Assembly: GCA_025201345.1 (NCBI GenBank)
Contig: JAIXMG010000016.1
Span: forward strand, 677,069 to 741,068
Length of the DNA: 64,000 bases
Direction: 5' to 3'
DNA from: Thamnidium elegans
Lineage: Eukaryota > Mucoromycota > Mucoromycetes > Mucorales > Mucoraceae
The notes under the pieces are model-generated. The model was given only the letters and a program-made list of their open reading frames with translations, was not told the DNA's origin and ran no database searches. A program made the translations under genes and the position numbers. This document shows, one piece after another, positions 17,350-34,913 of the stretch. Numbering within the stretch: position 1 is the stretch's first letter; each line of letters starts with the position of its first letter.

Positions 17350-18713
17350 CACTGTGGCCAGATAAAGTTGTTTTTTATACTAATAACAGTAGAAGTGTTT
17401 CTAAATATGCACACTGTAAATTCGGAAACTATGAGATAGTATGGTTACTGAATTTAGTATCCATGTATACTGGATTTATTATGCAGTATATTTTCCACTG
17501 AACGCAGTAAGTTGGATACTGAAATTGAAATGGTATCTTATGTACCCTATTTAGTAGAAATTCCACTAAAAAATACGTCATGAGTCTGTTTATTCAGTAA
17601 CCATTGCTCTTTATTCAGTAGCCATTGTTTTTTATTTAGTAAAATCTCTGTCTATTCAGTAGCCATTGCTCTTTATTTAGTAGCCATTGTTTTTTATTTA
17701 GTAGCCGTTGTTCTTTATTCAGTAGCCATTTATAACAACTTACTTCTACATAATATATATGGTTAAAATCTGTTTTACATAAATAGTGTTATTATCAAAC
17801 TTACAAGTAAATAAAAAACCAAGACATATGGTTAAACGGTTTCTTCTCTGTAAATATATAAATGTTTGTAGATATTAATAGGTAGTAAATAAAAATAACT
17901 AAAAGATGTGTACCTTAAGGTGAACCATAATAGTATTCAATGGTTAGATATCTAAAAGCAAACGAACAAAAAAAAATTGTTTTAGCGGTGGAAAAAAATA
18001 AAAAAAAATACTTTACTTAGCGTTTAGGGATACAATAGAGGCGAATGAACTATAGAAGAAGAAAAACAGTTATGTTCCATTTCAAGAGATTCAGTTTATT
18101 GTTACCATTGAGATTAGTCTTTTGTGTATAAAGTGAAGTAAAAGTATATATAAAAAAGGAAAAGAAAAAAAAAAGGGGGGGGGGGGAAGGCAAGGTCGCT
18201 TACGTCTGCGGTTGAAAAAAAAAAGTCACCTTCAGCTTGGCTAAACGACCTCTTTTTTTATACGTGATTCTGAAATTTATATAGTAAGTCCTAAGTATAC
18301 TGAAAAAAAGAAAGCACGAATATATGTAGTAAATCAATTTTTTTTATTATCGTAGCGTCTCTATTTTTTTTTTTTTTTTTTTGGATAACGTGGCAGTGTC
18401 TTTTTTTCTTTTTTTTTTTCTTTAAATAAATTTATATATTTGTCTATATTATTTGTACTTAGATAATTAACTTATTCCTCTATACATGTAGGTACTAAGA
18501 TCTAAACGACCATGACGCTGTAATATACCTATATGTTATAGAACATTGATATGCACCTTTTTAATATTTTAATTCCCGGGTAAAGAAAAAATCTAAATTT
18601 AGAATAAAAAAAAGGGGAAGAGTATTTTCTACTGAAAATAGCGGAATATATTCCGTATTTAGTAACTATGTCCACTAATAACAGTATCATTTACTAAATA
18701 TCTGGCCATAGTG
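17350..18713 (-). mobile_element. CACTA-ended repeat E-A (1.36 kb, non-autonomous)
   Basis: The element starts CACTGTGGCCAGATA and ends TATCTGGCCATAGTG, flanked by CAG on both sides, a 3-bp duplication as expected for CACTA/EnSpm transposons. No coding capacity is visible. Near one end (about 17590-17740) a unit like TTTAGTAGCCATTG is repeated about seven times, resembling the subterminal repeats that CACTA transposases bind. Two further copies lie at 20397-25367 and 36773-38072 in the opposite orientation. It has a G10 run near 18176 and several T-tracts. Confidence 0.75.
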
Positions 18714-20231
18714 CAGCATTTCAAGATGGAAGGAGTACCAGCGTTGAGATCAATCCTAGAACAATACGATTACATTTGCAAGATAGATCTGAAGGATGCC
18801 TATGTAGTAGTACCATTACACCCATTATCGAAACAATACCTGACCTTTTTACATCAAGATACACTCTACCAGTACCGATCTTTAGCATTCGGACTAAGTG
18901 TAGCACCAAGAGTATTTTCAAAACTAATGCGTTATGCAATAGAGCCATTGAGAAAACAGGGAATTCGATTGGTTTATTACCTCGACGATATCTGCTTAGT
19001 CACAAAATCGAAGAGCGAAATGAAGAAGGTAGTAGAGATAACTACCACTCACCTGAAGAATCTAGGCTTTATAATCAACTACAAGAAAAGCAATTTTTCT
19101 CCTCAGAAGATACAAGAATTTCTGGGCTTCCAGTTCAATACAGCAACAATGAAGATCGAATTACCATTACCAAAATTGAAGAAAATCGTGAGCCGAATAA
19201 AACAAGTCAAGAAGTCAGCAACAAATTTATCATGCCGGTGGATTGCAAGTCTGATCGGGAAAATGACAGCGGTTATACCCGCTATCGGAGATTCGCTTCT
19301 ACACCTAAGATACTTACAACGAGACTTGGCAAGGAGTTTAAACCGACACAAACAAAATTGGGAAAGCCCTTGTCAGTTATCGCCACTAAGCCACGAAGAT
19401 TTAACCTGGTGGGAAAACTTCGCGGGGTCAAGAAACGGTCTTCCAGTTCATCAAGAAGTGCTCCAGCGGCAACCAGATCTAGATATTTATGTCGATGCGT
19501 CCGACAGTGGTTATGGAATTAGCAGCACGGCAGTGAAAACTTATGGATTCTGGACCGAAGAAGAAAAATCTACGTCTATAAACGTAAGAGAACTGAAGAC
19601 AGTATGGTTAGCAGTACAGCTCCATGCAAAAGATTACGAAGACAAATATGTGAGGATTTTCTCAGACAACAAGACAGCTATAAAATATGTAATGAAGGCA
19701 GGAGGAATAGCATCACCGATACTACAGGATTTAGCATTGAAGATTCAGTTTGTACTGAACAAACACAGAATACAATTGAGTTGCGTACATATCCCTGGAG
19801 TTCAGAATACCGTCGCGGATCAACTCAGCAGACAGCCGAAACCATTGTACGAGTGGACCATTCCTCCAGCAATCTTTCAACAAATTCAAGATCGATGGGG
19901 ACCAATGACACTGGATGCTTTCGCAGCACACCAAAACAAGCGACTACCAAGATATTGGAGTTTGAGACCAGATCCGGCAGCAATAGAAATAGACGCATTC
20001 AAACAAGATTGGCCAGCAAAGGGTCTATACCTCCATCCCCCCTGGAAATTGATCCCACGGGTTCTGAAGGTACAACAAGCAGTGTTAATAACGCCATATT
20101 GGACAACACAATATTGGTACCCGATGATCCTAAAGATGACCAAGAAGAAACCGATGATCTTTCAAGTGTCAAAAAATTGGACATTAGCCGCATGGCTATT
20201 ATCCAACAATCAATGCAAGAACAGGGAATAG
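18714..20231 (+). CDS. DIRS reverse transcriptase / RNase H (5' truncated)
   Basis: About 505 codons. Motifs in order: KIDLKDAYVVVPLH (RT palm), LAFGLSVAPRVFSKLM, active site YYLDD, LGFIINYKKSNF and LGFQFN. Then RNase H with IYVDASDSGYG, the Glu of NVRELKTV, the Asp of IFSDNKTAIKY and a VADQLSR end. The last segment (WGPMTLDAFAAH...LHPPWKLIPRV) is the methyltransferase-like region typical of DIRS elements. The catalytic residues are present, but the N-terminus is lost at the boundary with E-A. Its end overlaps the start of the recombinase gene in another frame, as in DIRS-1. Confidence 0.9.
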   Translation, partial: QHFKMEGVPALRSILEQYDYICKIDLKDAYVVVPLHPLSKQYLTFLHQDTLYQYRSLAFGLSVAPRVFSKLMRYAIEPLRKQGIRLVYYLDDICLVTKSKSEMKKVVEITTTHLKNLGFIINYKKSNFSPQKIQEFLGFQFNTATMKIELPLPKLKKIVSRIKQVKKSATNLSCRWIASLIGKMTAVIPAIGDSLLHLRYLQRDLARSLNRHKQNWESPCQLSPLSHEDLTWWENFAGSRNGLPVHQEVLQRQPDLDIYVDASDSGYGISSTAVKTYGFWTEEEKSTSINVRELKTVWLAVQLHAKDYEDKYVRIFSDNKTAIKYVMKAGGIASPILQDLALKIQFVLNKHRIQLSCVHIPGVQNTVADQLSRQPKPLYEWTIPPAIFQQIQDRWGPMTLDAFAAHQNKRLPRYWSLRPDPAAIEIDAFKQDWPAKGLYLHPPWKLIPRVLKVQQAVLITPYWTTQYWYPMILKMTKKKPMIFQVSKNWTLAAWLLSNNQCKNRE

Positions 20232-20907
20232 ATGAGAGAACTATACATCAGTTAAAATCCAAACATTGGCAGATAGCCACCGAACACTACGATAGGATAT
20301 GGGAGAAGTGGACTGACTGGTGTATGAATCAAAACCCAAAAACTGATTACATAGCATACGAACCAAAAAATTTACTACGATTTTTAATGGATCACGCACT
20401 ATGGCCAGATATTTAGTAAATGATACTGTTATTAGTGGACATAGTTACTAAATACGGAATATATTCCGCTATTTTCAGTAGAAAATACTCTTCCCTTTTT
20501 TTTATTCTAAATTTAGATTTTTTCTTTACCAGGGAATTAAAATATTAAAAAGGTGCATACCAATGTTCTATAACAAATACGTATATTACAGCGTCATAGT
20601 CGTTTAGATCTTAGTGCTTACATGTATAGAGGAATAAGTTAATTATCAAAGTACAAATAATATAGACAAATATATAAATTTATTTAAAGAAAAAAAAAGA
20701 AAAAAGACACTGCCACGTTATCCAAAAAAAAAAAAAAAAATTGATTTACTACATATATTCGTGCTTTCTTTTTTTCAGTATACTTAGGACGGATGTATAT
20801 GCATATAAGTCTCAGGTCAATTTTAAACACCGAATATTTTACTTTTTGTATAAAACTGATTTTCCTTTTAAATAAAAAATATAGTTTAGAATAATACATT
20901 ATATAAT

Positions 20908-21785
20908 ATGTTTATAGAGTCATATCAAAATTTGAAGCATATATTTGACAATGAAGATAACGCATTAAATTACTTAATAGAAAATAAGTATGTGAATAAG
21001 TTTGATAAGTGCAGCATATGTAACTATGATATGAAATTAAATTTTAAGAAAAAGTTATACGTATGTAAATATTATAAATGCAGAAAAGCATTATCACCAT
21101 TAAAAGGAACAATATTTAATAAGTTAAGATTACCATTAAATATTCAATTACATATACTATATTTATTTTTAGGTAAAGCTCCTTCGTCTTTTATAAGTTC
21201 AAGTTTACAAATTGATAAAAATACAGTAAGTAGATATAGTAAATTATTTAGAAAGTACATAAAAGATAAGCAACTTATTAAGCCAAGAAATAAAATAGGA
21301 GGAAGAAATGAAATTGTTGAAATCGATGAAACTAAAATAGCGAAGAGAAAATATAATAAAGGACATAGTGTAGAAGGTGCATGGGTTATTGGAGGTATAC
21401 AAAGAAGTAGATTAAAGAATAAAGTTAAAATGAAAATAAAAAAATATTTTTAGAACCTATTGAAGAAAGAAATATAGAAAACATTAATGAAATAATAGAA
21501 AAATACATTAAGAAAGGTACTACAATATATACAGATTGTTGGAAAGGGTATAATAATTTAAGTAAAATAGGATATAAACATAAAACAGTTAATCATAAAA
21601 AACATTTTAAAGATCCGGTTACAGGAGTCCATACAAATACAATAGAAGGAACATGGAATGGACTAAAGCAAAGTATTATACCAAGAAATAGAAATAAAAA
21701 GGACATAGTCTTATATTTAAGGGAATATCAATGGAGAAAAAAGAATAGAGAATATAATATTTGGAAAAACTTTTTAAAAGATTAA
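20908..21785 (+). pseudogene. Merlin/IS1595-type DDE transposase, one frameshift
   Basis: An N-terminal zinc ribbon (CSICNYDM...CKYYKC), a helix-turn-helix region, then the catalytic Asp in EIVEIDETKI with KYNKGHSVEGAWVIGG, the second Asp in IYTDCWKGY and the Glu in HTNTIEGTWNGLK (spacing 36). This is the IS1016/Merlin signature. The frame breaks once at about 21430-21440, in an A-rich run; after it the remaining about 115 codons are open to TAA at 21785. A one-base error or recent mutation would explain it. Confidence 0.85.
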
Positions 21786-21815
21786 AAATTGAATTTACGT
21801 ATAATAAAAAAATAA

Positions 21816-22739
21816 ATGAATAAAGATAATTTATATTTTAATATTAAAAAATCAAAATATTTATATTTGATACTAAAAATAAAAAAATTAGAATTAAGAG
21901 TTAATACATTAAAAAAAGAAAATTTATTCTATAAAAATTTAAATAAAAATAATGAAACCATAGAGAATAAGTGCTCCCGAGAAATATATTATGAAACAAA
22001 AGAAAACAAAGATGAAGAATATAATCATATTAGCAAGAACACAAATATAGAAAATACATTAGATTTTAATATTGACGATAATAATAATAATAATATATGC
22101 GAAGATTGTGGATTTGAAATTAATGAAAATGGATGTATTTGTCCTGATATATGTAAAAATAAAGATTGTGAAAATTATGACGAAGATGAGTATAATAAAA
22201 TATGTAATATATGTAAAAATAAATTAGATAATAGCAACACTTTGGATGATGAATTAGATGAATTATATGAGGAGTCAAATACATTAAGTGATGTTGAAAT
22301 GGGAGAAGAATTATGTAATGAAAATTATCCCAAAACTTATACAAATAAAAAAAGAAAAAAGTATAATAAATTAAATGAAGACGACGAAAATTTAAAAGTT
22401 ATAAATAAACTAAGTAAACTAAATTTAAATATACATAAGAATAAACAAGATAGTGTATTTGACAAAATAAAACTAAATAATAGAAATACATTAAAATTAT
22501 TTAATGATATATATATAAAATACAGTAATAGCCAAATTGATGACAATTATATTAATGATATTTATGAAATTTATGATAAAAATAAATCAAGGTTCATGAA
22601 AAATTTAGAAATTAGTTCTAAAATATATAATAATAAAAAAGTATCTAATAGTAATTTTGTTTTTCCTTTATACACATTTAATAGCATAAAGAAAACATCG
22701 ATTGATAACTTTATAACTTTGATAGAAAAATTGGTTTAA
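21816..22739 (+). CDS. Merlin-associated Cys-rich accessory protein, unknown function
   Basis: 307 codons starting 30 nt after the transposase stop and ending just before the right terminus. The N-terminus is a Lys/Leu coiled coil (residues about 5-45). A Cys-rich block follows at about 90-145 (CEDCGFEINENGC, CKNKDCENYD, CNICKNK), probably a metal-binding module. Then an acidic stretch and a C-terminal helical domain (KLFNDIYIKY...YEIYDKNKSRFMKNLE...SIKKTSIDNFI). A second copy with the same layout occurs in Merlin copy 2 (27513-30024), so the protein belongs to the element. I do not recognise a family; a DNA-binding or transposition-helper role is only a guess. Confidence 0.75.
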   Translation: MNKDNLYFNIKKSKYLYLILKIKKLELRVNTLKKENLFYKNLNKNNETIENKCSREIYYETKENKDEEYNHISKNTNIENTLDFNIDDNNNNNICEDCGFEINENGCICPDICKNKDCENYDEDEYNKICNICKNKLDNSNTLDDELDELYEESNTLSDVEMGEELCNENYPKTYTNKKRKKYNKLNEDDENLKVINKLSKLNLNIHKNKQDSVFDKIKLNNRNTLKLFNDIYIKYSNSQIDDNYINDIYEIYDKNKSRFMKNLEISSKIYNNKKVSNSNFVFPLYTFNSIKKTSIDNFITLIEKLV

Positions 22740-22916
22740 AAAATATATGAGACCTTTATACATAATGACCCCTTAGGACTTACTATATAAATTTCAGAAT
22801 CACGTATAAAAAAAGAGGTCGTTTAGCCAAGCTGAAGGTGACTTTTTTTTTTCAACCGCAGACGTAAGCGACCTTGCCTTCCCCCCCCCCTTTTTTTTTT
22901 CTTTTCCTTTTTTATA

Positions 22917-24566
22917 CAGTGGGTGGAAAAATGGTCCGGATGTTTTATATTTTTTCACCTTCGTACTTGTAACTCTACAACCAAGAATAGGATTAAGTTG
23001 AAATAAAATACAATAGAAGAGGGAAATCGTTTACTTTCAAATAGGTAAAAAGTTGGGATAAAAATATTATATGTGGTTAAAATAATTTTATTTAAAAATG
23101 ACATATACATCCGGACCATTTTTCAGGGTCAAATTTAAAATATGAAAAGTTCCGAAATATTGGGATAATGAAAGTATTAACAATTAATATGTATTTGCTA
23201 CGGTATGTAGGTATCTTTCCGAGGTATGTATTGCATATACATATAAAAGGAAGACTTTTTCAAAATTGTTTTTCATTCTTTTATTCTTTCTTATTTTTTT
23301 TTAAATTATGGTTCGATCTCTTCCCAAAGATACTCAAAATAGTCTACAAAATTTGCTTCAATCTGGTTATTCCTACTCTCAGATCATGAAACGAATTCCT
23401 GGAATTAAAAAAAGCACAATTAGTGACTACAAGCGGAAGTGGTATCCTAATTCACCGATCAACAACCCAGGGAGACCCGCTCTTTTAGGCAATACTACGC
23501 AAAACTACATTCGAAAGAGCTTAATTTTGGGTAAACTAAAGACTGGAAAAGACGTTCAGAGGTACCTGGAATCTATTGATATTAAAATGGAGTATAGTAC
23601 ATGCCTTAAGGTGCTAAAATCTATGGGGTTCCAAGCGTATATAAAAAAGAAAAAACCTTTCCTTAAAGCCGAGCATAGAAAAAACAGGCTACGTTGGGCC
23701 AAAGCTCATAGAAATTGGACATCCGACGATTGGAGACGAATGGTATTCTCTGACGAAACAAAAATTAATGTTTGGGGTTCTGATGGGTGCAAGTACTATT
23801 GGAAAAGACCTGATGATATACTTCGATTTCATCATATTGAAATGACATTGAAGCATGGTGGAGGCGGTATTATGATGTGGGGTTGTATAACATATGACGG
23901 TCCAGAATATGCGTGCCAGATATATGATGGGAATATGAAAAAAGAGGACTATATCCATATTTTAAGTACGACTTTAAAAGACACGATGGAGTGGTATGGT
24001 TACAACCCAAAAGCTATATATTTTCAACAGGATAAGGATCCGAAACATACTTCGAAGGCAACAAAGACCTGGTTAAATGAAAATAAATTTAATACCGATT
24101 GGACATATAGTTGGCCTTCTCAAAGCCCCGATTTAAATCCTATAGAACACATATGGCATCACTTAAAGTTAAAGTTAAGCTATTACCCAACAAAGGCAGT
24201 AGGAGTACATGAATTGTGGGAAAGAGTTGAAGAACAATGGGCAACGTTTACAAAAGAAGATTGTCAAAGATATATAGATAGTATGCCTAAAAGAATAGAA
24301 GCTGTTATTAAGGCTAAAGGAGGTCCAACTAAATATTAAATATTTTAAATTTGACCCTGAAAAATGGTCCGGATGTATATGTCATTTTTAAATAAAATTA
24401 TTTTAACCACATATAATGTTTTTATCCCAACTTTTTACCTATTTGAAAGTAAACGATTTCCCTCTTCTATTGTATTTTATTTCAACTTAATCCTATTCTT
24501 GGTTGTAGAGTTACAAGTACGAAGGTGAAAAAATATAAAACATCCGGACCATTTTTCCACCCACTG
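22917..24566 (+). mobile_element. Tc1/mariner element a (DD37E), apparently complete
   Basis: About 225-bp inverted repeats, almost identical, start CAGTGGGTGGAAAAATGG and are flanked by TA; the empty site is seen in E-B. Within each repeat the outer GGTCCGGATG motif recurs inverted at the inner end, the IR/DR layout of Tc1 elements with two transposase sites per end. It contains one intact transposase gene. Element e (42682) is a truncated, almost identical copy. Confidence 0.9.
23308..24339 (+). CDS. Mariner transposase, DD37E, intact
   Basis: 343 codons without lesion. A paired-like helix-turn-helix N-terminus (SQIMKRIPGIKKSTISDYKR) and a GRP linker (INNPGRPALL) bind the inverted repeat. 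The catalytic Asp lies in VFSDETKINVWGSDG, the second in FQQDKDPKHTSK and the Glu in SPDLNPIEHIWHHLK, with 37 residues between the last two. The ATG follows a TATA-like TATAAAAGG about 70 nt upstream. Because ends, target duplication and gene are all whole, this copy could be active. Confidence 0.9.
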   Translation: MVRSLPKDTQNSLQNLLQSGYSYSQIMKRIPGIKKSTISDYKRKWYPNSPINNPGRPALLGNTTQNYIRKSLILGKLKTGKDVQRYLESIDIKMEYSTCLKVLKSMGFQAYIKKKKPFLKAEHRKNRLRWAKAHRNWTSDDWRRMVFSDETKINVWGSDGCKYYWKRPDDILRFHHIEMTLKHGGGGIMMWGCITYDGPEYACQIYDGNMKKEDYIHILSTTLKDTMEWYGYNPKAIYFQQDKDPKHTSKATKTWLNENKFNTDWTYSWPSQSPDLNPIEHIWHHLKLKLSYYPTKAVGVHELWERVEEQWATFTKEDCQRYIDSMPKRIEAVIKAKGGPTKY

Positions 24567-26251
24567 TATATACTTTTACTTCACTTTATACACAAAAGAC
24601 TAATCTCAATGGTAACAATAAACTGAATCTCTTGAAATGGAACATAACTGTTTTTCTTCTTCTATAGTTCATTCGCCTCTATTGTATCCCTAAACGCTAA
24701 GTAAAGTATTTTTTTTTATTTTTTTCCACCGCTAAAACAATTTTTTTTTGTTCGTTTGCTTTTAGATATCTAACCATTGAATACTATTATGGTTCACCTT
24801 AAGGTACACATCTTTTAGTTATTTTTATTTACTACCTATTAATATCTACAAACATTTATATATTTACAGAGAAGAAACCGTTTAACCATATGTCTTGGTT
24901 TTTTATTTACTTGTAAGTTTGATAATAACACTATTTATGTAAAACAGATTTTAACCATATATATTATGTAGAAGTAAGTTGTTATAAATGGCTACTGAAT
25001 AAAGAACAACGGCTACTAAATAAAAAACAATGGCTACTAAATAAAGAGCAATGGCTACTGAATAGACAGAGATTTTACTAAATAAAAAACAATGGCTACT
25101 GAATAAAGAGCAATGGTTACTGAATAAACAGACTCATGACGTATTTTTTAGTGGAATTTCTACTAAATAGGGTACATAAGATACCATTTCAGTTTCAGTA
25201 TCCAACTTACTGCGTTCAGTGGAAAATATACTGCATAATAAATCCAGTATACATGGATACTAAACTCAGTAACCATACTATCTCATAGTTTCCGAATTTA
25301 CAGTGTGCATATTTAGAAACAATTCTACTGTTATTAGTATAAAAAACAACTTTATCTGGCCACAGTGACAAACAATTTTCAACCTCACACTTAAATGTTA
25401 TGAAAGCAAGTATATGCTCTGTAATTAATATTCTTTTTCCCGAAAAGATCGAGATGAGTCAAACAAAGCTGATAAAAAGTTTCTTCATTTCACACAAGAA
25501 ACAACAAGTGCGGATTCTGAAGGAACAAGATATTGAAACATGGGATCAGGATATACTACTGAACTTTATAAAGGAAAGATACAAGGATACAAATAAACTA
25601 TCAACAGTCGATTTACAACAGAAAACAATATTATTACTGGCAATATTTACTATGTGGCGACCGCAATCAGATATAGGTAGGCTACAACATCAAGATGTTT
25701 GGTTCAAGGAGACAGAAGAAGGATTAGAAGGGGTTACAATCATTAGTAGATTACCAAAGGAGGCTCAACAAAAATCAATCTCATTAGGAATTACAACCGA
25801 CAACGATATGTGCCCAGTACAAACTCTATTTCATATCATCCAAAGCACCAAAAAATTTCGAACATATCTCCCAGAAGACCACACCTTATTCCTGACATAT
25901 ATCGGCAGTAAAACTAACCCCACTACTTCAATTAGCCCAAAAACAGTAGCAAGATTTATTCAGAAAAATATGATGGAAGCGGGAATAGACACAAGTATAT
26001 ATTCGACACATTCATTGAGATCGGCTGCAAGTACGAAGGCAGTTCAACTAGGGAATATAATTGAGGATGTAAAGAAACACGCGAACTGGAGTCTCAAGAG
26101 CGATACGTTTGAGCGATACTATTACAAGCCAAGACATTCTGAACGAATTAGTACAAGGATTAGCAACTCGATGTTAAAAAGTCTTTCGGAAAACACTACC
26201 ATATCTGAAGTCCGAACGAAGGCAACAAGTATTGGAGTAGGTACGACCTGC

Positions 26252-26476
26252 AATACGGACGTTGCCGTAGTGAGGACGAAAAGATATGGAAAAACCCAAC
26301 CCTAAATCTCCCACCCAGAAAAAAAAAAAAAAACACTATTTACTTGCTTAGAAAGTTATAAAGAGTAGATATTTTTCAATTAAGTTTAATATATATTAGA
26401 ATTTTCAAATAAAAAAGCGCGGCTCGGAGAGTTCTTTACCATATCTTTTCGTCCTCACTACGGCAACGTCCGTATT
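26252..26476. repeat. Inverted repeat at the DIRS right end
   Basis: 38 nt at 26252-26289 (aatacggacgttgccgtagt...) recur inverted at 26439-26476. The left arm is the last coding part of the recombinase; the right arm lies about 150 bp beyond the stop. DIRS elements carry terminal and internal complementary repeats used for making circles, so this is probably that structure. A poly-A run follows at 26483. Confidence 0.7.
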
Positions 26477-26810
26477 TTGTCTAAAAAAAAAAAAAAAAAA
26501 AAAAAAAAAGACAGTTTTGCCAAAATAAGATTTATTTACTTTGATCGTGACTTGCGATTTCTTAAGTGATGTTTATTGTGAATATTTGTAGTGATGAAGT
26601 TAACGAAAGTCTCGATGTTCCTAATAGAATAATCCGTGAAAATTATTTTACGATTGTGGTTGACGGCAGTATTAATTTAGAATTAAGAAAAAATAAAATA
26701 AAGAAGTTACAATGATGCTTCAAAAAAAAAAGCTCGTATATATAGTATTTCATTGGGCGGAATATTAAATATAACGGTAAGTCAGTGTTATGAAAAGAAA
26801 AATATTATTC

Positions 26811-27056
26811 ACTGATAAACTTATCATCAATGATTGTCTAACGATTGAGATCACTTTTATTTCAAACGACGATTTTTTGTTAGCAAAAAAAAAAAAAAAA
26901 AAAAAAAAAGTAAGAAAAAAAAGTAAATTTGTGCTTAATTTAGAGGAGCTTCAATCTCACTGATAATTTTATTTCTGTACAGCTTAAATTGAAGCATCAC
27001 TGAAGCTACAGTTATTCCACTAACCCTGCAATCATTGATGATTAGATTTATCATTT
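26811..27056. repeat. Possible small TIR element (MITE-like)
   Basis: About 26-nt imperfect inverted repeats: tgataaacttatcatcaatgattg at 26811-26835 and its complement at 27029-27054. About 190 bp of A-rich sequence lies between. It abuts the end of the G+C-rich gene fragment. No target duplication was proven. Confidence 0.35.
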
Positions 27057-27809
27057 TTTCTCGCCATAGCGGGCGGACAACAAGTCGGCACGGCAGTACA
27101 TCGCTTCCCGCAAGTCATTGTTCAAGTGACCACATCGGTTTGCTTCGCGTTCCCGGACGTTTTGGTTGGCTTGGGCTTGATTGATGAGGCTGGTCTGGAA
27201 TGGAAAGGTTTCTTCGTCGACTACAAAAATATATATATATATATATATTCATGTGCGGGTGGGGTACAGAGGAGCGTGTGGAGTTGGCGGAATTTTTCGA
27301 ATGTATCTGCATGTAGGTCTCAGATTATATTTAAGCTCCGACCAATTTAATTTTTTGTAAAATTGAAAAACATATTATAAATAAAATACATATATTAAAT
27401 TACGTAATTCAAAATAAGAGAATATCAATAGAGAAAAAAGAATAAATATAATATTTGGAAAATCTTTTTAAAAGATCAAAAATTGAATTTAGATATAAAT
27501 AAAAATTAAACAATGCCTTCTTATAACTCTTTGTACATTAAAATTAAAAAACAAAAGTATATTTATTTAGTAACTAAAGTTATGAAATTAGAAAAAAAAC
27601 TAATAAATTAAAAGAAGAAAATACTTATTACAAATCATTAAATAAAGAAAAAATAAATAATAATATTGACGATAAAATAAACAAACATTTAGAAGAGAGA
27701 CTAAATAATAAAAATACATTAGAATCAGACATAGATGATAGTAAAGAAATTGATATATGCGAAGATTGTGGATTTGAAATTAATGAAAATGGATGTATTT
27801 GTCCTGATA

Positions 27810-29444
27810 CAGTGACTCACAAAACTGTCCCAATGTTTGGACATTTTTTTTAAACGATAAACCAGTATATATAATTGGCATATAAAGTATCTTTTGTTAT
27901 ACCTCGTTCGATAGAGAAAACTGTCCTCTTTCCGAAGAAGTACTTATGTTGTATAAGTAAGGTCACGTGAGATGATTTAAACGCAGCTAAAGTTAAACTA
28001 TTTATTGGGACAGTTTTGTGAGATATAAAAAAAAATAATCATTTTTATTTTATTAATCTATTAATATTTAGTCCATTTTCCTTTTGCTTTTAAACAAGCA
28101 TGGATGCGTTTAGACATACTTTCGATGCATTTTTGACACTCTTCTGGCTTAATTTTATTGTACCAAACGTGAGAAACTCGTTCATTTAAATCCTCCATGC
28201 CTTTCGGTGCTGAATCATAATCGTTTAATCTACGTTTCAATAATGACCACATATTTTCGATTGGATTCAAGTCTGGTGAGTTTGGCGGCCATTCCATAAC
28301 TTTATAAGACTGTTCCTGAAGAAAGCTTTCGACCAGTTTAGAGGTATGTTTTGGATCGTTGTCCTGCTGAAAAATTATTTGGTCACGTCTAAATCCCAAT
28401 TCGCTGCAAGTAAATTCGATAGTCTTGTCTAAATCATCACTAAGAATTTCCTTATAAAGGTTGTTGTCCATGTTACCACTAATTCGACAAATCCAGCCAA
28501 CTCCGGCGTATGTAATTGCACTCCAGAGCATAGTATTACCGCCACCATGTTTGACTTTAAGTTTGCAATGGTGATTATGGAGATCCTCATTCCCTCTGAT
28601 CCAAACCCATTAACGACCATCAGAATTAAATCGGTTGATTTTTGTCTCGTCAGTCCATACAACTCTCTTCCAGTCGTCAATTGTCCAATCTTTGTGTGCA
28701 CGACACCATGCTAATCTTTTTTTAACATGACCATCCGTAAGCAATGTTTTTTCTGGTTTCTCAATTGCGCCTAATCCCTGACTTCTAAGTGTCCTTCGAA
28801 CTGTTTCCGAGTTACACTTGATTCCTAGATCGGTTTCTAATTTTTTTGTGACTTTCACGGCATTTTTAACTCGCTTTCGTGTAACTTGTTGCACACAGTA
28901 ATGCTTGTCAGTACCGGATAAAAGTTCTGGACGACCCCCCTTTGCTAATGAATGATCTAAATCAGCTTCCTTACGAATTCTAGATACCGTTGACTTTCCA
29001 ATTTTAAGTTCCTTTTGAATTTGACGTAGTGAATTGTCTTTTTTGAGCAATGAAATAACAGAGTCTCTTTTGTTCTTCGATAATTGTTTCATAATGATCT
29101 TGCACGGTTTTTTTTACTTACTTTAAGAATTTAATGCTCACCAAACGGAATAGGTTGTAGTTTATAAGGCAAACGTACTTTCTGTTAAAGTTATGGTATT
29201 ATTTTTTTCAGAATTCAAAATTTGCCGCTTCCTCACAAAACTGTCCCAATAAATAGTTTAACTTTAGCTGCGTTTAAATCATCTCACGTGACCTTACTTA
29301 TACAACATAAGTACTTCTTCGGAAAGAGGACAGTTTTCTCTATCGAACGAGGTATAACAAAAGATACTTTATATGCCAATTATATATACTGGTTTGTCGT
29401 TTAAAAAAAATGTCCAAACATTGGGACAGTTTTGTGAGTCACTG
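27810..29444 (-). mobile_element. Tc1/mariner element b (DD34E)
   Basis: Inverted repeats of about 210 bp begin CAGTGACTCACAAAACTGTC. The motif cacaaaactgtcccaa recurs at the inner end of each repeat (IR/DR type). It is flanked by TA within the Merlin ORF2 copy, and the uninterrupted site exists in Merlin copy 1. It holds one transposase gene with a single nonsense codon. Confidence 0.9.
28061..29092 (-). pseudogene. Mariner b transposase with one in-frame stop
   Basis: 344 codons in one frame, broken only by TAA at 28610-28612 (after FNSDGR). N-terminal HTH (LRQIQKELKIGKSTVSRIRK), then WTDETKINRF, FQQDNDPKHTSK and NSPDLNPIENMWSLLK: a DD34E triad. Closest in the window to mariner d (38529-39561). 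Confidence 0.85.
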
Positions 29445-30461
29445 TATATGTAAAAATGAAGATTCTGAAAATTATGACGAAGATGAGTATAATGAAATAT
29501 GTAATATATGTAAAAATAAATTAGATGAAGAGGTAGATGAACTGCGCGAAGAGTCAAATACGTTAGATGATATTGAAATGGAAGAAGAATTCTATAATGA
29601 AAACTCATCTAAAACAAGTAAAAATAGAAAAAATTATAATAAATTAAATGAGAATGAAGAAAATATAAAAGTAATAAATAAACTAAATAAGAACTATATT
29701 AATATAACTAAGAATGAAAAAGATCATTTAATTGAAGATATAAAATTAAATAATAGAAATACATTAAAATTATTTAATGATATATATATAAAACACATGA
29801 AAAAAGAAATTAAGGACGACTATATTAATAATATTTATGAAATTTATGATAAAAATAAATCAAGGTTTATGAAAAACTTAGAAATTAGTTTTAAAATATG
29901 TTCCAATGATAGAATATATAATAGTAATTATGTATTTCCACTATACACATTTAATAGCATAAAAAAATCATCCATTGACAATTTTATAAATTTATTAGAA
30001 AAACACGTTATAGAAAATATGTGAGACCTTAATACATAATGACCCAATTTTTCTACGAGGACATCACAAGGAATACGGGCTTGGACGATTTGGTCATCAT
30101 TGTAGTAGGTCAGGACGTATTTCAGGAGGTTGTAGGTCAAGCTGTATTGTTTTTCTTTGGAGCCCGTACAGCGTTCATTCGGGACAGACGTTTCGGTGAC
30201 GTTGAGCGGAAGATAGGTGACGCCGTAACAGTTCTTGTCGACACCGGCCCACCAGCCCACGATGCCTGTACACAACAACAAAAGAAAAAAAAAGTGAGTC
30301 CTCGCAGCAAAACGGCTAGGGAAAAGGTACCACCCGTTATTGTTGTTGTTACCTTTGACGGTCAACTCACGCTCGACCCGGAAGTGGCGCAACATGAAAT
30401 GCATCATGTTGGCATCGTAGGAGAACATTTTGTATTGCTCTAAATTTATTTTTTTCGCAGT

Positions 30462-33123: not shown

Positions 33124-33458
33124 ATATATGACATCAGTCTTCAAGTCGGTCTTATTCAATGTCCACATAACTCTAATCAGTTCTTTGTTATAGCGCCATA
33201 CTTTGTGTTTAACTCAAACCTCGGCGTTACCGCTGGTAATATCTCTTTAATATAGGCTATAAGCTATTCATAAAAAAAAGGTATAAAGGATAAAAAAAAA
33301 AATTGTATAAATTAAAAAAGATATGGATGTATCCCAATATAACTCTCAGATTTATAAAAATGTATGAGATGGATAAAATTGAATTTTATTATTAAAATAA
33401 ATATTAGGTGGATTAATTTGTAAACAAATAAAAACATAATTTTAAAATATTAGCATAA
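33124..33458. other. AT-rich spacer
   Basis: 335 bp with no gene seen. A tgagatggataaaattg motif at about 33365 resembles motifs at 34324 and 34453, so it may belong to the AT-rich element that follows. Confidence 0.35.
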
Positions 33459-34131
33459 TGGAAAACTTTGGGGATTTAATAGAACAAGAATACTTTTTAA
33501 AAATATAAAGAGATGTTATATCATTAAAATAATTGAGAATTATAATATAGAAAAGTTAAATATAATATATAATAATGATATTAAATCTTTTGAGATAAAA
33601 TTTGAGAAAGACAATAATCCGTATTTTTTTAAGTATAAAGTTAAAAGAAGAAGAAATAAATCGTTAACAAAACAAAATAAGAAATCAAAAACATTACAAA
33701 ATAATAAAAAAAATAGTCCAGAAATTAGTGAAATTAATGAAAATACTAAAAATATAAATAATGAAACTTTAGAAAACAATTTAATTAATGATATTAATAA
33801 TTGTGATGGTATAGGCAATGAACCTATTAACACTATATCCGATATACCTATAGATTATTCTAAAATTACAGGTTCTGTTGCTACTAATTTAAATAATAAT
33901 AGTGAGGATGTCAGTTTCAATGATTTATCAAACTCAAATACTAACACTTCTAAAATCATGACAAAAAGTAATAATAAAATTAACATAAAAAGAAATATAA
34001 TTAATAAAATACAAGAATTACTAGAATTGATGAAATACAGTAATGATCTAATAATTGAAGTTTTTAGTATAGTAAACAATAATAACCCTAAAATGGCTAT
34101 TAAAAAGTTAAATAAATATAACAATAACTAA
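33459..34131 (+). pseudogene. Asn-rich ORF of an AT-rich element, one frameshift
   Basis: ATG at 33459 opens MENFGDLIEQEYF; after one shift near 33500 the frame stays open to TAA at 34131 (about 220 codons). The middle has a basic patch (YKVKRRRNKS) and then a low-complexity Asn/Ser/Thr region, ending in a helical tail (NIINKIQELLELMKYSNDLI). Base and codon use match the Merlin and chromodomain-transposase genes. It may be the second gene of one of those elements. No family recognised. Confidence 0.4.
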
Positions 34132-34475
34132 ACATGTTCTGGAAATACCTTCAAAAGCAACCAAAATTAATGATGAACTTATAGAACTTATAGATAATTT
34201 CAATATATAAAACTTTGTACTAAAATGATTAAAATATTATAATGTATTTCTATGAATAATGTTTTATGATATTAAGGTTTTCTGTCAATTATAATGTTAT
34301 ATAACCAAAAAATATATGCGTTTGAGATGGATAATATTGTAGATTCAAAAATATAATCAAGGAAGATAGTTTTTTGATATTAACATAAGAGAATAAACAA
34401 TAATTATATTAAGAAAATAAAATATAATCAAAAATATAATCAAAACAATTGCATGAGACGGATAATATAAAAACC

Positions 34476-34498
34476 TGAGACCTAAAATGATAATGACC
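34476..34498 (+). repeat. Merlin-type right terminus, orphan
   Basis: GAGACCTAAAATGATAATGACCC closely matches the right ends of Merlin copies 1 (22749-22771) and 2 (30023-30045). It marks the end of a third, degraded Merlin-family element lying to the left, probably including the 33459-34131 ORF. Confidence 0.55.
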
Positions 34499-34913
34499 CA
34501 AAGATATAGTAACATTTATTACATATATGGTGTTGGATACCATATTTTCTTTTTTAAAAAACATTTCAATTATAATAATAATAAAAAATTAAAAAGAATA
34601 CAAAAAATAAATATACATGTATCTAAAGCCTTCCTTAAAAGGTTTTTGAGATTCTTTTGGCTAGCTTTTGCTTATGAGATGAGTATTTCTTATTCAGAAA
34701 ACTTGTTACCATTGTTACCTTTATGGTAACAAGTCATTCTTAAATACGATTGGCTATACGTAAAAAAATTGGTATAATGAGAAACATTTATGTTTCAAAT
34801 GTTTTTTTGATTTCAATGTATATAAAAATAATAATAAAAATAAGTTTCACAATTTTTATTTTATTTTAATAACATATCATCAAAAACCATAAATATATAA
34901 ATACAGTGGTGCT
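34499..34913. other. Part of a CACTA-family element left of mariner c
   Basis: Contains several ATGGTAAC/GTTACCAT motifs (34709-34735) and gagaaacatttatgtttcaaatg (34781), which recurs inverted at about 36554. Its left terminus was not found. Confidence 0.4.

Follow-up and report, generated by a model that had tools for sequence, protein, structure and literature searches.

A conserved second gene in Merlin-type transposons of Thamnidium elegans

Merlin elements and their bacterial relatives are described as one-gene transposons, and a conserved partner of the transposase would imply a further DDE superfamily in which accessory proteins evolved. The window analysed here, a stretch of 64,000 nucleotides from Thamnidium elegans, raises this question: it contains two Merlin-type elements, and an initial annotation assigned to both of them a second gene, ORF2, downstream of the transposase. 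We ask whether ORF2 is a regular component of such elements and what its protein might do.

Two Merlin-type elements in the window

The features of the window are collected in Table 1. Both copies do have the matching ends and the 8-bp target duplications first reported for them, the duplications being exact, and the same ends recur genome-wide. Copy 1 belongs to family A, in which five intact siblings measure 1982 bp, as against 1981 bp in copy 1. Its transposase gene is broken by a frameshift; the second of the two pieces matches Pfam PF12762, and intact siblings of 292 aa are present elsewhere in the T. elegans genome.

Table 1. Coordinates of the elements and their parts, counted from the first letter of the window
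Feature	Position	Strand	Remarks
Target duplication of copy 1, 8 bp	20783–20790 (left), 22772–22779 (right)	.	CTTAGGAC flanks both sides
Merlin copy 1, family A, 1981 bp	20791–22771	+	Ends and target duplication
IS1595/Merlin transposase gene, frameshifted in copy 1	20908–21785	+	Pieces 20908–21453 and 21444–21785
ORF2, 307 aa, intact	21816–22739	+	Open reading frame
ORF2 N-terminal helix / coiled coil, residues 12–45	21849–21950	+	AlphaFold model, invariant columns
Cys-rich block, residues 95–133, 8 Cys	22098–22214	+	Present in A and B, absent from C
ORF2 basic motif and C-terminal helical domain, residues 176–307	22341–22736	+	Conserved core
Target duplication of copy 2, 8 bp	27291–27298 (left), 30046–30053 (right)	.	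AATTTTTC flanks both sides
Merlin copy 2, family B (ORF2-only), enlarged by nested insertion	27299–30045	+	
Transposase 3'-end remnant kept in family B	27434–27510	+	84% match to 21740–21816
ORF2 pseudogene of copy 2, split by nested element	27513–30024	+	
Nested Tc1/mariner-like element in copy 2 ORF2	27797–29457	-	226-nt inverted arms, 98%
Family D element	33325–34499	+	C-type ends, AAAGATAT on both sides; broken ORF3; no transposase or ORF2

Copy 2 differs from its first description in two respects. Its ORF2 had been taken as whole, but it is split by a Tc1/mariner-like element, which has inverted arms at 27797–28022 and 29232–29457, contains transposase-like ORF pieces (judged by eye) and is inserted in the Cys-rich block; in addition, one Cys is replaced by Ser and the N-terminal part has stops. 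The transposase was said to have been mostly lost from this copy. A short 3' tail does remain, but the absence is common to family B rather than a single loss: 12 further B elements were recovered with both ends, and no match to this type of transposase is present in any of them. The tail is kept in the three B elements inspected, two of them by alignment (the same tail in L017, a shortened one in L015) and the third, L020, in printed sequence.

Families, ends and linkage across the genome

Three ORF2-bearing families, A, B and C, are found in the T. elegans genome. Families A and C consist of a 292-aa IS1595/Merlin transposase followed in tandem, after a gap of 30–54 nt, by ORF2, and family B, of about 1.1 kb, contains ORF2 only. 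The intact A and C transposases match PF12762 (E=2.5e-19 and 3.6e-17) and the NCBIfam IS1595 model NF033547 (94.2 and 90.4 bits, cut-off 75). Since A and C each encode this transposase in full, the idea that ORF2 is half of a split transposase was rejected. Between A and C the transposases are 83% identical and the ORF2 proteins 42%.

Allowing up to two mismatches, we located 54 left and 53 right ends in the genome, and a control with the reversed pattern gave 0. The terminal inverted repeats are imperfect between left and right; between A and B, 2 of 25 bases are changed at one end and 1 of 23 at the other. The target duplication is exact in 24 of 28 paired elements; the exceptions are L014, L015, L025 and L027, of which L015 and L025 are shifted by one base. 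Ends could be paired into 45 elements, 35 with an ORF2 match and the other ten belonging to family D (see below), and at the same stringency for each end no paired element in the genome fell below 743 bp.

Six-frame searching yielded 62 ORF2 matches in this genome (E<=0.001). Rather than lying mainly far from Merlin elements, the outcome that the annotation had set against itself, every one of them is within 1.5 kb of a matching Merlin-type end on the same strand, and none lies elsewhere; the proposal that a conserved second gene travels with Merlin is therefore supported in the host genome. Passenger genes occur in bacterial IS1595-family elements, and ORF2, which resembles no known family, might likewise be a passenger serving the host or an unrelated trait. 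This is distinctly improbable, given the position of all 62 matches beside ends and the lack of any Pfam domain at cut-off in ORF2.

The linkage also holds from the side of the transposase. All 18 transposase matches that span query residues 1–181 are followed by an ORF2 match, which in three cases (C7, C9 and C12:1645) covers only the start of ORF2, 36–105 residues; a transposase fragment on C37 has no ORF2 match. These counts bear on the possibility that ORF2 represses transposition and that ORF2-only elements spread partly by damping autonomous copies. Such a repressor would fit the retention of the protein in transposase-less copies and the predicted N-terminal helix, which might form multimers, but the presence of at least part of ORF2 after all 18 transposases disfavours it at the level of the element, and we consider it quite unlikely. 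Seven other Merlin-like stretches (L062–L068) represent families whose transposases have C-terminal extensions, and no ORF2 match was found in them.

Family D comprises ten full-length copies of 95–100% identity, which contain neither transposase nor ORF2; instead they carry a different gene, ORF3. A relationship of ORF3 to ORF2 or to the transposase was rejected (profile comparison probabilities of 0.3% and 0.1%). Family D has C-type ends and has reached about ten copies despite lacking ORF2, so an element does not have to encode ORF2 in cis, and the idea that every element requires it is unsupported. Family D likewise weighs against an anti-silencing role, in which ORF2 would protect its own family as VANC does for the VANDAL elements of Arabidopsis: such a role would account for the retention of ORF2 in transposase-less elements, as in family B, and agrees with the fast divergence of its middle part, but the abundance and near identity of D copies lacking ORF2 make it unlikely.

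Relatives of ORF2 are found in Mucor hiemalis and Mucor flavus and in further assemblies, with C-terminal domains 38–95% identical to that of copy 1. By exact length, 4 of 17 short ORF2 contigs coincide with a contig that carries the transposase, where 0.31 would be expected (P 0.0002); in one of these four cases the types disagree.

The ORF2 protein and the selection acting on it

The conserved core of ORF2 is the N-terminal coiled coil together with the C-terminal helical domain. AlphaFold models residues 176–307, which include the basic motif, with a pLDDT of 84 and a pTM of 0.76, and the N-terminal helix with block means of 65–75 over residues 11–40. Sequence searches of Pfam, NCBIfam and PDB and fold searches gave nothing significant for ORF2, and the C-terminal domain had no clear match in PDB. 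In particular, no Pfam match to Myb/SANT was obtained, and the fold searches yielded only weak rows, which do not speak against such a protein.

The annotation had also counted the Cys-rich block as a conserved feature, and a Cys-rich zinc domain was considered as the core. This was rejected: family C combines an intact transposase with an ORF2 that lacks the block, and relatives outside T. elegans variously show another Cys motif, a comparable block or neither. The AlphaFold model of the block is too poor to serve as a guide to zinc binding. The middle region seems exchangeable, since two outside relatives, P0010 and P0149, have another C...C...C..H motif there. Within T. elegans, the near identity of the block in A and B probably reflects exchange or recombination between elements, because a comparison of A with the B copies L017 and L020 gives 0 synonymous differences in 18.7 sites inside the block and dS of about 0.9 to 2.3 in the stretches around it; within the block, 3 synonymous changes are seen in L016, also of family B.

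Selection was estimated as dN/dS by the NG86 method. For the C-terminal domain, the ratio is 0.23 between A and C, where dS is near saturation, 0.23 between B and C, and 0.44–0.49 between A and B (0.38–0.41 over the whole of ORF2), rather than near 1, a value that the annotation had named as counting against its proposal; for the transposase it is 0.06 between A and C. Judging from these ratios, the C-terminal domain is under purifying selection. Outside it, selection appears weak or unclear, with A–C ratios of 0.67 (N-terminal), 1.6 (Cys region) and 1.2 (linker) and B–C ratios of 2.3–2.4 (linker) over poorly alignable sequence.

A further comparison was made among 12 B copies, selected because their frame stays open over 250 aa or more. 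Of 33 codon columns with a single change, 13 are synonymous, as against 5.3–9.0 expected, an excess with P of 0.001–0.09 depending on the mutation model and weak at high transition bias. More broadly, 14 family B matches have an uninterrupted ORF2 frame of 292–316 aa.

These results bear on whether ORF2 is a non-functional frame that is open only through the youth of its copies. Eleven A matches are 99–100% identical to the ORF2 of copy 1, as such a frame would predict. The selection between families, the in-frame length changes in the 12 B copies (chosen for open frames) and the relatives in other sources at the C-terminal identities given above largely refute it, and we regard it as scarcely credible.

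Possible role and known parallels

The best reading, which we hold tentatively and at a little less than an even chance, is that ORF2 is an accessory transposition protein. On this reading the elements belong to a lineage of Merlin (IS1595-like DDE) transposons within the Mucorales, with transposase and ORF2 in tandem. We infer that the ORF2 protein is produced; it may dimerise through its N-terminal coiled coil and enter the nucleus by means of the basic motif, and its C-terminal helical domain would contact either the transposase or the ends of the element, in a manner similar to the Myb-like ORF2 of Harbinger. Family B would then consist of transposase-deleted derivatives that are moved by transposase made by A and still encode ORF2. 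The retention of ORF2 in transposase-less copies suggests a role in the spread of the elements.

A wider reading is that Mucorales Merlin elements are modular, with similar ends enclosing transposase and ORF2, ORF2 alone or ORF3 alone, and that the transposase-less forms are lasting accessory-only transposons rather than decayed ones, selected for a protein that serves their own kind and supplied with transposase in trans. This is possible but doubtful. MITEs and deletion derivatives are likewise transposase-less, and family B resembles them in being presumably mobile in trans; it differs in retaining a full gene. The ORF2-only and ORF3-only families pose the question of why transposase-less elements keep any protein gene at all.

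Passages of PMC8101967 characterize the IS1595 family by 8-bp duplications, the IS1595 domain and a single transposase gene, and make no mention of another conserved gene. The present elements agree in encoding a DDE transposase with an IS1595 domain and a length of about 292 aa, and in their 8-bp duplications and inverted ends, and differ from that one-gene description in having a conserved second gene, kept by transposase-less forms. No two-gene Merlin appeared among the listed matches in the open-access literature (titles and starts of abstracts; subscription papers and Repbase lay outside this scope), and a search for passenger genes in IS1595 led to a paper whose passages place such genes in Tn3-family elements. 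The second conserved gene in Merlin is the new element here, and these small, young, many-copy transposons offer a system for testing its role.

Two other systems combine transposons with additional proteins. In PIF/Harbinger elements, according to portions of PMC9179366, the Myb-like proteins diverge far more than their transposases; the pairing of a conserved transposase with a faster-evolving second protein is similar here, whereas the transposase is of the IS1595 and not the Harbinger type. VANC, reported to counteract silencing in a sequence-specific manner, is also a protein other than a transposase that accompanies a particular element family; the likeness considered here would be one of function, and VANDAL elements are plant elements.

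As a minor observation, the deposited T. elegans gene model P0021 joins parts of the transposase and ORF2, a fusion that we take to be an artefact of the gene caller.

Linkage of ORF2 to Merlin elements

The initial annotation described Merlin transposons in which the transposase is followed by a conserved second gene, ORF2. In the host genome (G000; 34.1 Mb in 64 contigs), ORF2 does travel with Merlin: all 62 matches from a genome-wide ORF2 search lie within 1.5 kb of a same-strand element end. Allowing up to two mismatches, the end patterns matched the genome at 54 left ends and 53 right ends, and the reversed pattern, used as a control, gave no match genome-wide. When left and right ends within 10 kb were paired, 45 elements were obtained and nine left ends stayed unpaired; 35 of the elements contain an ORF2 match, and the ten without one all belong to family D. 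Transposase matches covering query residues 1-181 have an ORF2 match downstream in 18 of 18 cases (broken start only in three), and a transposase fragment on contig C37 (residues 1-74) has none. The smallest paired element is a decayed family B copy of 743 bp; this pattern search of the genome, which gives a lower bound, thus revealed no classical short MITEs.

Paired ends were also sought in selected genome loci, which yielded 28 distinct elements. An exact 8-bp target duplication is present at 24 of them; those at loci L014, L015, L025 and L027 are inexact, with a one-base shift at L015 and L025. Family A elements (about 1982 bp) encode a transposase of 292 aa and an ORF2 of 307 aa, both intact and full length in five copies (L002, L003, L004, L005 and L009) and each slightly shorter in a sixth (L011). 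Family C elements (1894-2097 bp) carry in four copies a transposase frame of 247-292 aa and an ORF2 of 268-288 aa, and family B elements (1091-1161 bp) carry no transposase and, in 12 copies, an ORF2 of 291-315 aa. The transposase stop and the ORF2 start are separated by 30 nt in family A and by 54 nt in copy L048 of family C.

The protein database was searched twice with a profile, which found 19 and 24 ORF2 relatives, or 29 distinct proteins overall, among them four from T. elegans and one each from Mucor hiemalis and Mucor flavus. As only about 8,000 candidates were scored in each search, this count may understate the family. For the transposase, 820 relatives were found at E<=1e-20. To see whether the two genes occur on common contigs, 17 of the 29 ORF2 relatives (the other 12 come from T. 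elegans or sit on long contigs) were compared by size of longest contig with 59 of the 120 transposases listed out of 820 (rows P0025-P0090 minus seven with a long contig or none). Four sizes coincide exactly (1946, 2081, 2020 and 5142), where 0.31 were expected (P 0.0002). The 2081 pair agrees in type, with a C-like ORF2 (P0008) and a transposase 96% identical to that of C (P0026); the 2020 pair is doubtful, as it sets a C-like ORF2 against a transposase just 47% identical to that of A. Two long contigs (3,580,802 and 5,876,844 bases) also carry both genes, a co-occurrence that does not imply adjacency.

The transposase of L003 (P0023; L003:592-1467) has N-terminal CxxC and CxxxxC pairs, which are retained in both T. 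elegans transposase types and in seven of eight relatives examined and altered in the shorter P0081; a Pfam search of the transposase turned up no zinc domain. Further IS1595/Merlin-like transposases (L062-L068) occur in many copies; their reading frames reach about 520 aa, and they have acidic C-terminal extensions that are Arg/Gly-rich in several.

Conservation and putative role of ORF2

The proposed conservation of ORF2 holds for its C-terminal domain, in which dN/dS (NG86; rough, since maximum-likelihood dS is unstable for distant pairs) is below 1 between families: 0.23 for A-C (dS 1.38) and 0.23 for B-C. Elsewhere in ORF2 the values for A-C are 0.67 (N-terminal), 1.6 (Cys region) and 1.2 (linker), and those for B-C are 0.20, 1.6-1.7 and 2.3-2.4, the Cys-region and linker values being based on poorly alignable sequence. 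For the A-C transposase, dN/dS is 0.06 (dS 1.77). Between A and B, ORF2 gives 0.38-0.41 as a whole and 0.44-0.49 in the C-terminal domain (dS 0.36-0.39).

In the A/B/C alignment, conservation is seen at the N-terminus (roughly residues 6-43), in a basic stretch and in the C-terminal domain that follows it, and the acidic middle is variable; region by region, the net charge is +8, -6, -6, -12 and +11. The Cys-rich block reported initially is present in A and B (8 Cys, residues 93-136) but absent from C. The whole-ORF2 model (mean pLDDT 59.7) reaches good quality nowhere but in its C-terminal part; the N-terminal helix is modelled fairly and the Cys block poorly. Modelled alone from 20 sequences, the C-terminal domain is predicted to be helical (pLDDT 84, pTM 0.76). 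Neither model had a clear match in the PDB.

In the Cys region, two of three B copies have 0 synonymous differences from A in 18.7 sites, and L016 has three. Sliding identity between A and B copy L017 is 100% over 90 nt of the Cys stretch, 91% over the next 45 nt and 44-93% elsewhere; the corresponding Cys-stretch identities for L016 are 87%, 98% and 80%. We interpret this pattern as probable exchange between A and B elements.

ORF2 may still be under selection in B after loss of the transposase, a suggestive rather than strong result. Three within-B pairs give dN/dS of 0.28, 0.28 and 0.40 (few changes). Across 12 B copies, selected because their reading frame stays open over 250 aa or more, 13 of 33 single-change codon columns are synonymous and 20 nonsynonymous (five complex columns excluded), against a neutral expectation of 5.3 to 9.0 synonymous (P 0.001 to 0.09 for transition bias 1 to 6); with a further five gap-adjacent columns excluded, the figure is 12 of 28 (P 0.0008 to 0.05). 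In eight A copies, five of nine variable codon columns are synonymous.

Since ORF2 accompanies the transposase, conserves one compact domain across species and varies far more than the transposase, it is best read as a putative accessory transposition protein, a partner of the transposase. The Myb-like partner of Harbinger, which according to the passages seen binds the ends and helps nuclear import, is likewise much more variable than its transposase (PMC9179366). Anti-silencing and repression of transposition are both live alternatives, and either function would also account for family B.

The accessory reading would add a partner to a group whose IS1595 members are described as usually having a single transposase gene, in a paper that also reports Merlin from Mucoromycota (PMC8101967). 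All Mucorales sequenced in another study, T. elegans included, are reported to have Merlin, the passages seen giving no anatomy (PMC7928374). Among the open-access literature matches listed, as far as seen, none describes a two-gene Merlin.

Family D and the setting of the window copies

Family D combines C-type ends with another gene, ORF3 (251 aa), which is unrelated to ORF2 and the transposase. A DNA search of the genome found ten full-length copies, that in the window included (95-100% identity), and fragments besides; ORF3 is stop-free at full length in eight and broken in the window copy, which contains neither transposase nor ORF2. Family D shows that a C-type-ended element can spread in the absence of ORF2, and also that the T. 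elegans genome holds two kinds of protein-coding elements without transposase, B and D.

Features around the Merlin copies in the window (G000:C8:677069-741068)
Feature	Position	Details
Reverse transcriptase (RT) gene	18711-20231	domain match, PF00078
Merlin copy 1 (family A)	20791-22771	
Tc1/mariner-like element	22913-24570	231-nt inverted arms, perfect match; 343-aa transposase intact, DDE_3 and HTH domains
Tyrosine-recombinase-like gene	25400-26305	domain match, PF00589, just below cut-off
Merlin copy 2 (family B)	27299-30045	
Family D copy	33325-34499	AAAGATAT at both flanks; C-type ends

The matching ends and 8-bp duplications first noted for copies 1 and 2 were found again. A second gene had been assigned to both: in copy 1 ORF2 is intact, but in copy 2 it is split by a Tc1/mariner-like element. 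The transposase is frameshifted in copy 1 and reduced to a short tail in copy 2.

The RT and tyrosine-recombinase-like genes sit either side of copy 1 and a Tc1/mariner element, an arrangement that looks like what we take to be a DIRS-like retroelement with nested insertions. The Tc1/mariner-like element in the table looks young. Element ends are bunched at few sites per contig (e.g. C1 0.88-0.95 Mb, C17 0.52-0.55 Mb and C18 17-53 kb), which by eye look like TE islands.
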